In this document: positions 2,854-22,256 of the stretch, one piece after another
Layout of the letters: each line of letters opens with the position of its first letter
Position numbering within the stretch: the first letter of the stretch is position 1
IMG/VR virus record: IMGVR_UViG_3300031857_001327
Location: 1 to 24,406 of that record
Source: a virus
Direction: 5' to 3' (one strand)
Length of the DNA stretch: 24,406 nucleotides
Made by a program: the position numbers and the translations under genes
Notes under the pieces: generated by a model
Told to the model about the DNA's origin: nothing
The model's input: only the letters and a program-made list of their open reading frames with translations
The model's database searches: none

Positions 2854-3337
2854 TGCATACATAAGCAAGAATTATGACCATCTCAAAAAGTTGGCACGTA
2901 ACATTGCGCGGAATGCTGAATGGTATGAAGACCTTTTGCATGAATCAATCATTAGTGCTATCACAAGTAAACATATTGATAATCTTTTGCAGAATGACGA
3001 ATTTGAATTCTATTTGATACGTGTTATGTACTTATCAGTTAATTCACCATCATCACCGTTCTACAAATTACACATCGAATACAAAAGAAACAAACGTGAT
3101 TTTGTAGATAAGAATTATGAAGAAGATAAAACGTGGTTAGGTGCGCGAATGACAAACGAACAATTAGACATTCTAATTAGCAGATTAAGTGAATTTGAAA
3201 GATTAGTGTTTGAAGAATATATTTTAGAAGATTTCACGTACAAAGAATTCAGTAAACAAACTGGTATACCACAAGTGTATCTTTATAGAACAATAGATAA
3301 AGTAAAACAAAAACTCCGAAACAATGTTATTCGTTAG
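2843..3337 (+). CDS. Sigma-70 family (ECF-like) RNA polymerase sigma factor
   Basis: This 164-residue protein looks like a minimal two-domain sigma factor. Residues about 12-40 (HLKKLARNIARNAEWYEDLLHE) resemble sigma region 2, including the ED-L-E signature. Residues about 118-158 (FERLVFEEYILEDFTYKEFSK and the following IPQVYLYRTIDKVKQKLR) are a sigma region-4 helix-turn-helix. It probably redirects host RNA polymerase to phage promoters, perhaps for the right-hand operons. The start is TTG at 2843, overlapping the VRR-NUC stop; the nearby ATG at 2852 is in another frame and soon meets a stop. Its 3' end overlaps the next gene by 14 bases. Region 2 is degenerate, so it could instead be a sigma-like phage activator. 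Confidence 0.7.
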   Translation: MTLDAYISKNYDHLKKLARNIARNAEWYEDLLHESIISAITSKHIDNLLQNDEFEFYLIRVMYLSVNSPSSPFYKLHIEYKRNKRDFVDKNYEEDKTWLGARMTNEQLDILISRLSEFERLVFEEYILEDFTYKEFSKQTGIPQVYLYRTIDKVKQKLRNNVIR

Positions 3338-14729: not shown

Positions 14730-16582
14730 TGGCTACAAAGGAATTCAATATAACTGGCAATGGCGTTCAATATATGAACGATGTTGCGCAAGCATCAGAA
14801 CAAAGTGCGCAAGGATTTAAAAGTGCGAAGGCAGAATTACGTGCGTTGCAGAATCAGATGCTTGAGATGGATCAATCAAGCGAAGAATTCAAAAAAGCGT
14901 CAGCACGTGCAGCAGAATTAAAGGATAACATAAGTGATTTAGCACAAGAATTAAGTGCGAATGCAGGTAATGCATTTGAGCAGGTATCAAATAACGTTGG
15001 TTTGTTTGGTGACCGAATTATGTCATTAGATTTCAAAGGTGCTGGTATTGCGTTAAGTGGTTTTGGTAATGCACTTGGGCAATTGAATTTCAAAACCATT
15101 AAAGAAGAATTAGGTGGTTTGATTAAAGGAATTGGTGATATGGGTAAAGCGTTACTTGCAAATCCAATTTTCTTAATAGCAGGTACAATTGCAGGTGTAA
15201 TTGCATATTGGAGTGAATTAACAACAGCAGTAAAAAACTTCAATATAACGCAAGAAGAATCGATTGATAAAATGATGCGTAGTGAGGCGGTGATGAAAGA
15301 AATGGATTCAGTTAAAGTTCAAACTGCACAAATTGAATTATTAGTACGTGCGGTTAATGACCATTCGAAAAGTGAAGATGATAGAAAGAAAGCATTAGGT
15401 GAAGTGAACAAAGCGTTAAAAGCAAATGGTATTGAAGCAATTAATGATATCAACGCAACGAACGATATCATCAATGCAAAAAATCAATTGATTTTAAAGT
15501 TACAACAAGAAGCAAAGGTTCGTGGTAAGTTAAAATATCTTGAAGACCTTTATGCTAAACAATCACAATTACTTGCGAATAAAGGATTCACAACTACATT
15601 ATCAGAAGCAAATCAAGCAGGTCTTTCATTACTTGGATTGCAAGGTGGTTTTATTCAGAGCATCACAGATATGGGTGCATCTATGGTTGGAACAACCGTA
15701 ACTGATTTGCAGAATATTCAAAAAGAAATTGATTTCATTAGTGAAGATATTTATAATGACCAAGAAGCATTAGCAAAACTTACCATAAAAGGAAACGAAG
15801 AAAATGAAGATAAGAAAGGTGATATTATAAAAAAAGGAGCAGAAAAAAGAAAGAAAACACGTGATGAAATTCTGCAAGAAGAAGCCGATGCTTTGAAGAA
15901 AGCAATGGATGAAGCGTATGAAGCAGAGCGTGTGAATGAACGCAATTTGGATTTGTTATATGAAACGCAAGGTATACAAAGAATCGAAGGTGCGTTACAA
16001 ACAACGGACAAAATAATTGAAATAAAGAAAATTGAGAATGATGCATTAGATTCGCTCGATGCAGAACAAGCATTCCGCGCACAAGAACGTCAACGTGAAT
16101 TAAATGCAAAGCGTTTACAAATGGCAAGTGATGTATTTGGTGCGTTGGGTAATCTTGCAGAATCGTTTGGCACTAAATCAGAAAAAGATGCGAAGCGACA
16201 ATTTGAAGTTGTGAAAGCATTCAATTTAGCACAAGCAATTGTTGCAACTTACACAGCAGTTAACAACGCATTAACGGCAGGTGGTAACCCTGCAAAACTT
16301 GCAACTGGCGCACAATTCGTTGAAGCAGGTGTTGCACTTGCGGCAGGTCTTGCAAACGTTATTAAAATACAACAAACGAAATTTGAAAGTAAAACACCAC
16401 CAAGCGGTGGTGGTGGTTTAAATGGAGGTACAAATGTTGGTGGTTCACCTTCACCACTATCACTTTCGTTTTTGCAGAATCAACCTAATCAACAACCACC
16501 GTTTCAAGCATATGTAATTAGTGGTCAAGTATCGAATTCAATAGAGGCACAACAATTAATAAATAATCAATCAAAATTATGA
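14729..16582 (+). CDS. Tail tape measure protein, 617 aa
   Basis: This protein sets tail length in the assembling siphovirus tail. The N-terminal half is a long helical, coiled-coil-like region rich in Ala, Gln, Lys and Glu (ELRALQNQMLEMDQSSEE). A hydrophobic segment at about residues 138-165 (LLANPIFLIAGTIAGVIAY) may cross the host membrane during DNA ejection. A second Ala/Gly-rich hydrophobic stretch lies near 510-540, and a Gly/Pro-rich end follows (PPSGGGGLNGG). By the usual 0.15 nm per residue the tail would be near 90 nm. It starts at TAATG overlapping the small gene before it and ends in ATGA overlap with the protease gene. Confidence 0.85.
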   Translation: MATKEFNITGNGVQYMNDVAQASEQSAQGFKSAKAELRALQNQMLEMDQSSEEFKKASARAAELKDNISDLAQELSANAGNAFEQVSNNVGLFGDRIMSLDFKGAGIALSGFGNALGQLNFKTIKEELGGLIKGIGDMGKALLANPIFLIAGTIAGVIAYWSELTTAVKNFNITQEESIDKMMRSEAVMKEMDSVKVQTAQIELLVRAVNDHSKSEDDRKKALGEVNKALKANGIEAINDINATNDIINAKNQLILKLQQEAKVRGKLKYLEDLYAKQSQLLANKGFTTTLSEANQAGLSLLGLQGGFIQSITDMGASMVGTTVTDLQNIQKEIDFISEDIYNDQEALAKLTIKGNEENEDKKGDIIKKGAEKRKKTRDEILQEEADALKKAMDEAYEAERVNERNLDLLYETQGIQRIEGALQTTDKIIEIKKIENDALDSLDAEQAFRAQERQRELNAKRLQMASDVFGALGNLAESFGTKSEKDAKRQFEVVKAFNLAQAIVATYTAVNNALTAGGNPAKLATGAQFVEAGVALAAGLANVIKIQQTKFESKTPPSGGGGLNGGTNVGGSPSPLSLSFLQNQPNQQPPFQAYVISGQVSNSIEAQQLINNQSKL

Positions 16583-17490
16583 TGAATAAAAAAATAAAAG
16601 TTATCGAGTATGGCATAGACGATACTGGTATGTTAGGCGTTCACGCAATAAGTGTTGTTGAAGACCCTGCAATTGGTGTTGACTTCGTTGCGTTATCAGA
16701 CGAAAAACGTTATGTAACACTTGCATCAGAAGAACGCAAGATGTTATACGGTGCGTTGCTCATTCCCGACCAATTAATTTACAGATACGATGAAGCACAA
16801 GGTGAGTACTATGTGAAGTATAGCAAAGAAACAATTGAAAAAATTGCGCACAATTACTTCAAGCAGAATTTGCATCATAATGCTACTTTAGAACACGAAT
16901 CACCAGTTGTTGGTTTAACGCTTGTTGAATCGTGGTTAATTGAAGGTGAGAATGATAAATCAAAAGAGTTCGGATTTTCATTACCAGTTGGCACGTGGTT
17001 CGGTGGGATGAAAGTTGAAAACGATGAAGTATGGAACAAAGTAAAAAGCGGTGAAGTAAAAGCGTTTTCAATCGAAGGAATGTTCGTACCGAAAAAAGAA
17101 ATGAAGATGTCTGAACAACAAGAACAATGGATCGTTGAACTTGAACAAATGTTGCAGATGGCAAGTGAAGAAGAAATTGTTGCACGTTATGAAGATTATG
17201 TGCGTGTTGTAAATATGAGTTATGATGAACTTAATGAATGGGCAAAATCTGAATGTTCACGATTAGCTTCGTTAGACCGTTCACCCATTGAAAGAAATTT
17301 AGAATTACTCTCAACACCAAAATCTGAATGGACAGAAAAGCATTTTGAATGGGCTGGTAAAACAATTGCATTCGTCAATCGTATGCGTGAAAATAGCGCA
17401 GGTGATTTACTCGTTGATAGCGAAGGTAATGATTGCGGAAGTAAGCGAACTATATCACTTAAAAATTGGGCATTTGACCCGAACAAATGA
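16579..17490 (+). CDS. XkdF-like prohead protease, 303 aa
   Basis: Residues about 1-175 match the XkdF-like (Peptidase_S78_2) serine protease domain: AISVVEDPAIGVDFVAL (24-40), ATLEHESPVVGLTLVESW with candidate catalytic His106, the PVGTWFGGMKV strand, and VKAFSIEGMF with the candidate nucleophile Ser164. It would process the scaffold or capsid during head maturation, which fits its place before the scaffold and capsid genes. The C-terminal part (about 176-303) is a separate helical and polar domain with SEWTEKHFEWAGKTIAF and NDCGSKRTISLKNWAFDP, a module seen in other phage proteins but without known function. Two adjacent ATG codons (16579, 16582) can serve as start. Confidence 0.75.
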   Translation: MMNKKIKVIEYGIDDTGMLGVHAISVVEDPAIGVDFVALSDEKRYVTLASEERKMLYGALLIPDQLIYRYDEAQGEYYVKYSKETIEKIAHNYFKQNLHHNATLEHESPVVGLTLVESWLIEGENDKSKEFGFSLPVGTWFGGMKVENDEVWNKVKSGEVKAFSIEGMFVPKKEMKMSEQQEQWIVELEQMLQMASEEEIVARYEDYVRVVNMSYDELNEWAKSECSRLASLDRSPIERNLELLSTPKSEWTEKHFEWAGKTIAFVNRMRENSAGDLLVDSEGNDCGSKRTISLKNWAFDPNK

Positions 17491-19963: not shown

Positions 19964-20347
19964 ATGATTTATCTACTTACAAATACTGCAAACCAAACAA
20001 CGTATTTAACGTTGAATGAAGGGCGTAGTTATTACACAACTGCATTCACGCATTATTTGTTGGTGTTGACCTACGAAATGACTGGTGATACATTAGGTCA
20101 AGTGGTTAGTGTGATAAGCGAGAACGAAAGAATCACCACAATTGAATTAACAACTGCAACACTTGTTGATGCAGGGCGTTACAGATATGAAGTGTATGGT
20201 CAAAATTCTTCAAGCAATACAGACCCAACAGATGCAAGTGTTGTTGGTTTAGTTGAAAAAGGAATTTTTGAACTAACTGAAAATGTAAATTACTATGATG
20301 TTTCAACGCCAACAATTCCAGTTGACGTTATTTATACTGGCACTTAA
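19964..20347 (+). CDS. Putative structural protein, 127 aa
   Basis: This 127-residue beta-rich protein starts MIYLLTNTANQTTYLTLNEG and includes YRYEVYGQNSSSNTDPTDA, with a Thr-rich and acidic end (VSTPTIPVDVIYTGT). It lies between the tube-like gene and the portal and is TAATG-coupled to the portal. I recognise its general type (small structural proteins near the capsid genes of Bacteroidota phages, with an immunoglobulin-like fold suggested by the strand pattern), but no specific function. It could be a head decoration protein. Confidence 0.5.
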   Translation: MIYLLTNTANQTTYLTLNEGRSYYTTAFTHYLLVLTYEMTGDTLGQVVSVISENERITTIELTTATLVDAGRYRYEVYGQNSSSNTDPTDASVVGLVEKGIFELTENVNYYDVSTPTIPVDVIYTGT

Positions 20348-21618
20348 TGACTAACATACAACAATTCAACTTCGCAAAATATCAACCAACGGAAGCAATT
20401 GAAAAAGAGAATCGCGCAGGTTGGATTGACTACGGTGATAACAATTTATATCCGCAATACTTAATTAATCTTTATCACAATTCACCAATACACAATGCGT
20501 TGGTGAATTCGATTTCGTTTATGATTGCTGGTAAAGGTACTGATACGATTCTTGATAATGCGTTAGATGGAATTGCATTCGATTTAAAATTGCAAGGTCA
20601 ATTTGTTGCTGAAATTATATGGTCATTAGATGGTACACGCGTTGCGCAAATCAATCACTTGCCTTTCGAGAATTGCAGACTTGCATACGATAAAGAATGT
20701 GAAGAAGTAAATGGTATTTGGTATTCGTACGATTGGAGTAACACGCGCAGTAAAAAAGGTAAACCATATTTCATTCCTTTGTTTGATCCATCGTGCGCAA
20801 AAGAATATCCACGTCAAGTAATTTATGACCATTCGATGTGTGCTGGTTCTATGTACTATGCTAAACCCGATTATTATGGTTCTTTGAATTACATCGAGTT
20901 ATCATATCAGATGGGAATGTATCACGTGAATAACATTATGAATGGATTATTCCCATCGTTCATAATTAACTTCTTGAATGGCATACCACAAAAAGAAGAA
21001 CGCGAACAAATACGTAGAGAATGGGAAGCAAGATTGAGCGGTGCGAGTAATGCAGGTAAGTTCTTGATGACATTCAATGAAGACCCTGCACGTGCGCCAC
21101 AAATAGAGCCATTTCCAATATCTGATGCGGATAAACAATATCAATTTTTGAGTGAAGAAACTGCGAAGCAAATTATGATTGGCCATCGTATCACATCACC
21201 TTTACTTTTTGGTATTCGTGATAATGGTGGATTTGGTAGTAACAAAGATGAAATGGTTGTTGCGTTGGATATCTTCAACCATCAAGTGATTCAACCATAT
21301 CAAAGATTAATTACTGATGTGTTCACACCAATCATTGGTGATATTGAAATTGCATTGAATTCACCTTTTGAAATTGTTGAAACTGCATTACCAACTGAAT
21401 CAATTGTTATTGATACACCAGTTGACCAACCAACAACAACTGATGTAACAGCAGAAGTAAAGGTATCTGATGTGACATACAACGGTGCACAAATTGCATC
21501 AGCAATTGACATTGTTTCAAAAGTAAAAGAAGGAATTTTAACGCAAGAACAAGCGATTGTTTTCTTGGTGCAGTTCTTACAGGTTGATGTTGAAGTTGCA
21601 ATCAAAAAAAAAAAGTAA
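20347..21618 (+). CDS. Portal protein, 423 aa (zero frame)
   Basis: This protein would form the ring at the capsid vertex through which DNA is packaged and ejected. It has the N-terminal WIDYGDNNLYPQYLINLYHN and SPIHNALVNSISFMIAGKG, typical of phage portals of this group. Helical stem-like segments follow (SYQMGMYHVNNIMNG), then KEEREQIRREWEARLSG and GKFLMTFNED, and a clip/crown part containing GHRITSPLLFGIRDN. The zero-frame product ends at an A11 tract (…IKKKK). A minus-1 shift at A_AAA_AAG (21609-21615) would extend it by 213 residues, so 423 residues may be the shorter form. It starts at TAATG overlapping the upstream gene. Confidence 0.8.
   Translation: MTNIQQFNFAKYQPTEAIEKENRAGWIDYGDNNLYPQYLINLYHNSPIHNALVNSISFMIAGKGTDTILDNALDGIAFDLKLQGQFVAEIIWSLDGTRVAQINHLPFENCRLAYDKECEEVNGIWYSYDWSNTRSKKGKPYFIPLFDPSCAKEYPRQVIYDHSMCAGSMYYAKPDYYGSLNYIELSYQMGMYHVNNIMNGLFPSFIINFLNGIPQKEEREQIRREWEARLSGASNAGKFLMTFNEDPARAPQIEPFPISDADKQYQFLSEETAKQIMIGHRITSPLLFGIRDNGGFGSNKDEMVVALDIFNHQVIQPYQRLITDVFTPIIGDIEIALNSPFEIVETALPTESIVIDTPVDQPTTTDVTAEVKVSDVTYNGAQIASAIDIVSKVKEGILTQEQAIVFLVQFLQVDVEVAIKKKK
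21609..21615 (+). other. Candidate minus-1 frameshift / slippage site (A_AAA_AAG) at portal end
   Basis: Eleven A residues (21604-21614) end in AAG and then the zero-frame TAA. The heptamer A_AAA_AAG is in phase, the same one used in E. coli dnaX. AATCAG (21628-21633) can pair with CTGATT (21642-21647) just downstream. Adding one A by polymerase slippage would give the same fusion. A homopolymer sequencing error is the main alternative. Confidence 0.65.
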
Positions 21619-22256
21619 AGAAAAATAAATCAGAACCAAAACTGATTAATGGTGTACCTGCGCACATTAGTGAAGAAGATTCTAATGCGTGGTTAAAACA
21701 CCTTGCTGATAAAGCCGAATACGTTGATGAAGAAGAATGGGAATGCATATCAGATGAAGAAGTAACAGACCCACACAACGAAGAAGCGTATCGAAAAGAA
21801 TATATGTCATTGCGTTCATATGCAAAGCCGAATGAACGTTCGGATGAAACAGATAAAGGTCTTTATAAAATTCGGTATTACTATTCAAAGAATTTAACGT
21901 GGCGCGATGGCGAAATGGTAACGCGTGAGTTTTGTCGCGAGATGGTTGCACTTTCAAAAGCAGGTGCAGTTTATCGTTATGAAGACATCATTGCAATGGA
22001 AGGCGAGAATGAGAAGTTCGCACCAGCAGGGTCGAATGGGTATTCGGTCTGGCATTGGAAAGGCGGTTGCTATTGTCACCATAAGTTCTTTCGTAAGATA
22101 TATTTCAGAAAAAGAAAAGGTGGTCAATTCTTACCGAACAAAGGTCTTGCAAATGATTCAGTTGTAAAAGATAACGTTGATAGTTTAAAACCAAAAGGTG
22201 TTGAAGCAATTCGACCAATTGACACACCATCACGTGGTTCACTTAAATACAAATAA
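21615..22256 (+). CDS. Portal extension / head morphogenesis-like domain (minus-1 frame)
   Basis: The minus-1 frame after the portal A11 tract is open for 213 residues. The first 63 codons (SEPKLINGVPAHISEEDS, then WLKHLADKAEYVDEEEWE) read like coding sequence but contain no ATG, GTG or TTG, so translation is most easily explained by frameshift from the portal. If not, a product from ATG 21804 (150 residues) remains. The domain has TREFCREMVALSKAGAVYR, then W-KGGCYCHHKFF, a Cys/His pattern resembling C-terminal modules of phage head morphogenesis (Mu gpF-like) proteins; the resemblance is from memory. The fused product would be about 636 residues. Confidence 0.65.
   Translation, partial: VKKNKSEPKLINGVPAHISEEDSNAWLKHLADKAEYVDEEEWECISDEEVTDPHNEEAYRKEYMSLRSYAKPNERSDETDKGLYKIRYYYSKNLTWRDGEMVTREFCREMVALSKAGAVYRYEDIIAMEGENEKFAPAGSNGYSVWHWKGGCYCHHKFFRKIYFRKRKGGQFLPNKGLANDSVVKDNVDSLKPKGVEAIRPIDTPSRGSLKYK

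Follow-up and report, generated by a model that had tools for sequence, protein, structure and literature searches.

A run of adenines in the linker of a phage portal gene is probably kept as a transcriptional slippage site, so that one gene would give both a full-length portal protein and a truncated but complete portal core. The DNA analysed here, referred to as the window, is a stretch of 24,406 nucleotides (positions 1 to 24,406 of IMG/VR record IMGVR_UViG_3300031857_001327). Among its relatives, which are metagenomic contigs, the portal core and a C-terminal domain are joined in one gene in nearly all cases examined, the A-run is conserved at the nucleotide level, its presence changes repeatedly on the trees, and stop codons lie just beyond it in slipped frames. 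From these patterns we infer slippage at the level of transcription, with both products put to use.

The portal ORF of the window (20347-21618) closes with AAA AAA AAA AAG TAA, as the preliminary description had read it; the A11 tract spans 21604-21614 and the stop 21616-21618. An open -1 frame begins at 21594 and runs to a stop at 22254-22256. No ATG occurs in it after the tract before 21804, 63 codons on; the open frame and the lack of an early ATG had both been correctly pointed out. The portal ORF matched the phrog_33693 portal profile (1.3e-42, profile residues 12-353), and PF04860 at 1.4e-8, under the cut-off of that family. Foldseek searches with the model of the L003 portal, from a near-identical contig described below, retrieved the solved portals 6toa (GTA portal, 2e-9), 9rkq and 8fwb. 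The gene is thus placed by fold and profile among the HK97/GTA-like portals. The phrog_33693 profile also matched the extension (E 4e-18, profile residues 374-512), and 16 contigs encode the same extension. We conclude on this sequence evidence that the extension is coding, beyond chance, as had been suspected. The features of the region are listed in Table 1. Elsewhere in the window, an ORF at 5467-6267 matches phrog_6059 at 2e-54 (family label queuine tRNA-ribosyltransferase, label as given).

Table 1. Features of the portal region, in window coordinates.
Feature	Position	Strand	Evidence
Portal core (HK97/GTA-type portal fold)	20347..21375	+	phrog_33693; sub-threshold PF04860; Foldseek with L003 model
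Helical accessory segment (SDVTYNGAQIASAIDIV...), in the long class only, not the short class	21457..21600	+	Alignment and ORF classes
Junction lacking 49 bp that L003 and G400 have	21601..21602	+	Contig comparison
A11 tract, proposed slippage site	21604..21614	+	Sequence; conservation in relatives
TAA, read in frame 0 only due to the missing 49 bp	21616..21618	+	Sequence; relatives
C-terminal domain (SRxFC ... KGGxxCxHxW motif)	21651..22256	+	-1 frame in window; portal frame in relatives

A -1 frameshift had been thought necessary to extend the portal in the window. This requirement was removed by contig L003 (IMGVR_UViG_3300042691_024701), which matches the window base for base over 4,356 bp apart from 49 extra bp immediately 5' of TC-A11, and in which portal and extension form a single 652-aa ORF. 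In the L003 frame the tract reads CAA AAA AAA AAA GTA, and the TAA falls outside that frame. It follows that 49 bp are absent from the window through a deletion or through a gap in assembly, both being possible, and a programmed -1 shift there was rejected in view of this otherwise identical contig with its open frame. The same 49 bp formed the longest gap within a structural-module gene in a comparison with contig G400 (93% similar to the window), the smaller gaps being judged by eye as boundary or compensating. The junction in the window reads GTTGCAA-TCAAAAAAAAAAAG. No microhomology was found at the break, and this junction was found in no other viral contig, in a search that may omit the window's own record. 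Both the gain or loss of an 80-aa helical segment (window 21457-21603) and the 49-bp loss stop just where the A-tract begins, a site that may be prone to rearrangement.

The preliminary description had suggested alignment with relatives in which portal and extension are one gene. A tract of A10-A12 (rarely A9) was found between the portal core and the C-terminal domain in 138 relatives, in 14 clusters at 65% core identity, and 137 of these 138 ORFs run through it in frame into the extension. The sole exception, L016, has an intact A11 and is broken elsewhere, by a separate frame break inside the C-terminal domain (about 3100-3140; mutation or assembly error). All close relatives reaching the tract region carry the tract, and they form two classes: a long class (about 650 aa) with A11 after CAA, and a short class (about 567 aa) with A10 after TTA that is without the helical segment of about 80 aa. 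The tract is phased as xAA AAA AAA AAA or xxA AAA AAA AAA, each followed by G, or as xAA AAA AAA AAG.

Core loci were collected with core patterns that excluded the tract, apart from one pattern that included it and touched L003-L018 only, and distant scans gave 111 representatives at 90% identity. The longest linker A-run was bimodal in this set, with 7 or fewer in 60 representatives and 9-12 in 51 (one A9, 32 A10, 17 A11 and one A12). Its position relative to the core and to inserted domains varies, and among the relatives listed it lies between the core and the C-terminal domain. Carriers include L258 from a Pricia MAG (A10) and L265 from genome G217 (A9). As 60 of the 111 representatives have a fused portal gene without the tract, the tract is not essential to the one-gene architecture. 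No tract carrier was found in the phage records searched, where Nonlabens P12024S/L gave the only full-length matches and are without the tract. Some phages of the group were found in Flavobacteriaceae genomes, and the hosts are, or appear to be, Bacteroidota, the latter judged from a handful of loci in Flavobacteriaceae and Bacteroidia.

One alternative is that the gene in the window is split by a 49-bp deletion or a gap in assembly, the tract in the relatives being just a poly-lysine linker with no role in slippage. The identity of L003 apart from the 49 bp, the relatives' product, which reads as a normal single protein, and the disorder of the linker in the structural model are all consistent with this. 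We accept the part that concerns the window. The absence of function is however in conflict with codon usage: the lysine triplets in the tract were A-only in 48 of 48 cases (run of at least 9), compared with 0 of 7 for neighbouring linker KKK, which is AAG-rich, and 1 of 28 elsewhere in the same ORFs. Synonymous recoding retained an equally long run with a mean probability of 0.25 per representative, or about 3e-11 when multiplied over the 14 clusters, a product that applies to clusters that were selected for having the tract and are only partly independent. Because of this selection the comparison of A-only lysine codons is the fairer test. No other A-run of 10 or more was present in plus-strand ORFs of at least 100 aa in the same loci (304 kb), and long A-runs are avoided in many bacterial genomes (PMC1088944). 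Furthermore, tract presence required 11 changes on the tree of cores, at least 9 of them forced by well-supported branches, and 13 changes on the extension tree, at least 7 of them forced, with gains and losses counted together and not told apart. These repeated changes and the stop placement described below also speak against a functionless linker, and we regard this explanation as unlikely. A homopolymer of at least 9 with length conserved among homologues has been taken as the mark of programmed transcriptional slippage (PMC1088944), and the A9-A12 tracts in 51 of the 111 representatives and in 138 ORFs are of this kind.

The ends of the slipped frames were examined in the 51 representatives with the tract. 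Of these, 49 have a stop no more than two codons after the tract in one slipped frame, the exceptions being L086 and L137. Synonymous recoding gave 30.9 +/- 3.3 of 51 (maximum 42 in 500), so that this null alone places a near stop in over half of cases, a high value that is due to the AT-rich DNA; the expectation at random positions was 21.1. With one representative per 65% cluster (14), near stops numbered 12.5 versus 7.7 expected (P 0.0015). The near stop was in the minus-A frame in 28 and in the plus-A frame in 22. In the clade of the window, Val-Val after the tract is encoded as GTA GTT or GTT GTA, so that the minus-A frame meets a stop. Other clades have their stop in the plus-A frame, for example where AAG ATT AAT becomes AAA GAT TAA. 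Nearly all representatives thus have a defined alternative end in a slipped frame.

We propose that, in a fraction of the transcripts of this gene, RNA polymerase inserts or skips an A at the stretch of 10-11 A's. The gene encodes a portal core, a disordered linker and a C-terminal domain that may be head-associated. Translation of the slipped transcripts would be ended by the stop one or two codons on. The outcome would be a full-length portal and a truncated but complete core, perhaps with just a subset of the ring's subunits bearing the C-terminal domain. Because Bacteroidia genomes contain a few portal relatives of about 380-440 aa that have no extension, it is plausible that the short product is a complete portal. 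The idea of two portal forms made by transcript slippage had been raised in the preliminary description and is supported by the conservation of the tract, but the direction is reversed: the gene of the relatives reads straight into the long form, and it is the short one that slippage would produce. In the window, the upstream loss of 49 bp would make the frame-0 product short, and the long form would need slippage.

Slippage of the ribosome rather than the polymerase would predict a -1 slip at A_AAA_AAA/G, or sliding on iterated AAA, to give a short portal. Tracts do contain a -1 heptamer, and sliding of E. coli ribosomes on iterated AAA is reported (PMC4363877). The near stop however lies in a frame that cannot be reached by -1 shifting in 28 of the 51 representatives, and the tracts are longer than a heptamer needs. 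The A_AAA_AAG heptamer that had been pointed out is in phase in the window, but this phase arises solely from the 49-bp loss and is not found in the closest relatives, in which the equivalent TAA terminates the slipped (-1 A) frame. Similarly, the stem reported at 21628-21647 is present as a weak stem in the window and L003 (z -1.8) but is not conserved in other relatives: no conserved downstream stem was found in L009, the extension of which is 90% identical, or in five other relatives. No enrichment of ribosomal heptamers was seen in the linkers of tract-less relatives. With its heptamer phase arising from the deletion, its stem not conserved and the near stops of the window's clade outside the -1 frame, dnaX-type programmed -1 ribosomal frameshifting is not supported. 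Translational recoding in general also appears improbable. Near stops in both slipped frames, together with tracts that exceed a heptamer, favor transcriptional over ribosomal slippage.

Two further explanations are very improbable. Homopolymers of 10-12 are typical of contingency loci, and tract-length mutation could toggle the C-terminal domain at the DNA level; however, all but one (L016) of the 138 ORFs continue in frame into the extension, and no out-of-frame tract-length variant was seen among them. Translation leaders of Bacteroidota are A-rich, and the tract could serve as a leader for internal initiation of a separate C-terminal protein, but the first in-frame ATG lies 8-102 codons past the tract, with no fixed spacing.

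The L003 model has a confident portal core, a disordered linker (437-455) that contains the tract, and a C-terminal part of lower confidence; a model of the extension alone was of middling confidence (pLDDT 69). The extension had been described as a Cys/His domain similar to head-morphogenesis proteins. Invariant C, C and H residues are indeed present, but no MuF or known head-morphogenesis family was recovered. Neither a consistent Pfam match (79 members) nor a PDB match was obtained, and a MuF or SPP1 gp7-like identity was not adopted. The C-terminal domain structurally resembles the C-terminal domain of predicted XkdF-type head-protease proteins. The window also has a separate XkdF-type protease gene at 16579-17490 (PF14550, 1.5e-18). 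In L139 and L158 a domain matching phrog_2859 is inserted between the tract and the C-terminal domain, and the insert of L158 has further matches to halovirus proteins that carry prohead protease, portal or head morphogenesis annotations. In SPP1, a few copies of gp7 reach the head through its portal (PMC6316719), a placement to which the C-terminal domain can be likened by analogy only.

Other systems offer partial precedents for slippage at the portal tract. The dnaX gene of Thermus thermophilus has about 50% transcriptional slippage at an A9 run (PMC1088944), and there, as in the portal relatives, the in-frame gene encodes the long product and slippage gives a shorter one; dnaX however encodes a DNA polymerase subunit and its slippage is demonstrated, whereas here the protein is a virion component and slippage is deduced from sequence. 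Type VI secretion tssM genes provide both arrangements. In Citrobacter rodentium tssM1 a frame-0 stop follows an A11 run, as in the window, with 20-25% slippage and mRNAs carrying 10-15 A's, and in Yersinia pseudotuberculosis tssM3, long in frame 0 like the portal relatives, slippage gives the short form (PMC4256274). Because an A11 upstream of the stop in tssM1 gives 20-25% long product, the broken form in the window might, by analogy, make both products. The tract is reported for only two tssM genes (PMC4256274), while it recurs here in 138 portal ORFs. Two virion forms per gene, with and without an extension, are also known from T7/T3 gene 10 and the Kuravirus major capsid protein, where a ribosomal -1 frameshift gives a longer capsid protein (PMC5009743, PMC9965538); here the protein is a portal and the probable transcript slippage would lead to a shorter form. 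The excerpted text of PMC7302621 describes Microbacterium phages with portal and MuF head domain fused in one gene, an architecture like that seen here; slippage is not described in that text, and the C-terminal domain here is without a detectable MuF match. Slippage or recoding of a portal was not reported in the literature searched, which yielded capsid and tail recoding and portal-MuF fusions and had most subscription papers outside its scope; the word portal is absent from the excerpted text of the main recoding review.

Mis-assembly at the tract or its flank would lead annotators to split the portal gene in such contigs. Portal rings are commonly taken as homomers. If the proposal is true, a sloppy polymerase would let a single gene produce two kinds of portal subunit. 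Transcriptional slippage of this sort would also be a rarity among tailed phages, and its conservation in many lineages makes the function testable. More tentatively, and with chances that we place slightly below even, the tract would be a conserved, repeatedly evolved slippage switch that leads to mixed portal rings, in which the slippage rate sets the number of subunits bearing the C-terminal domain.
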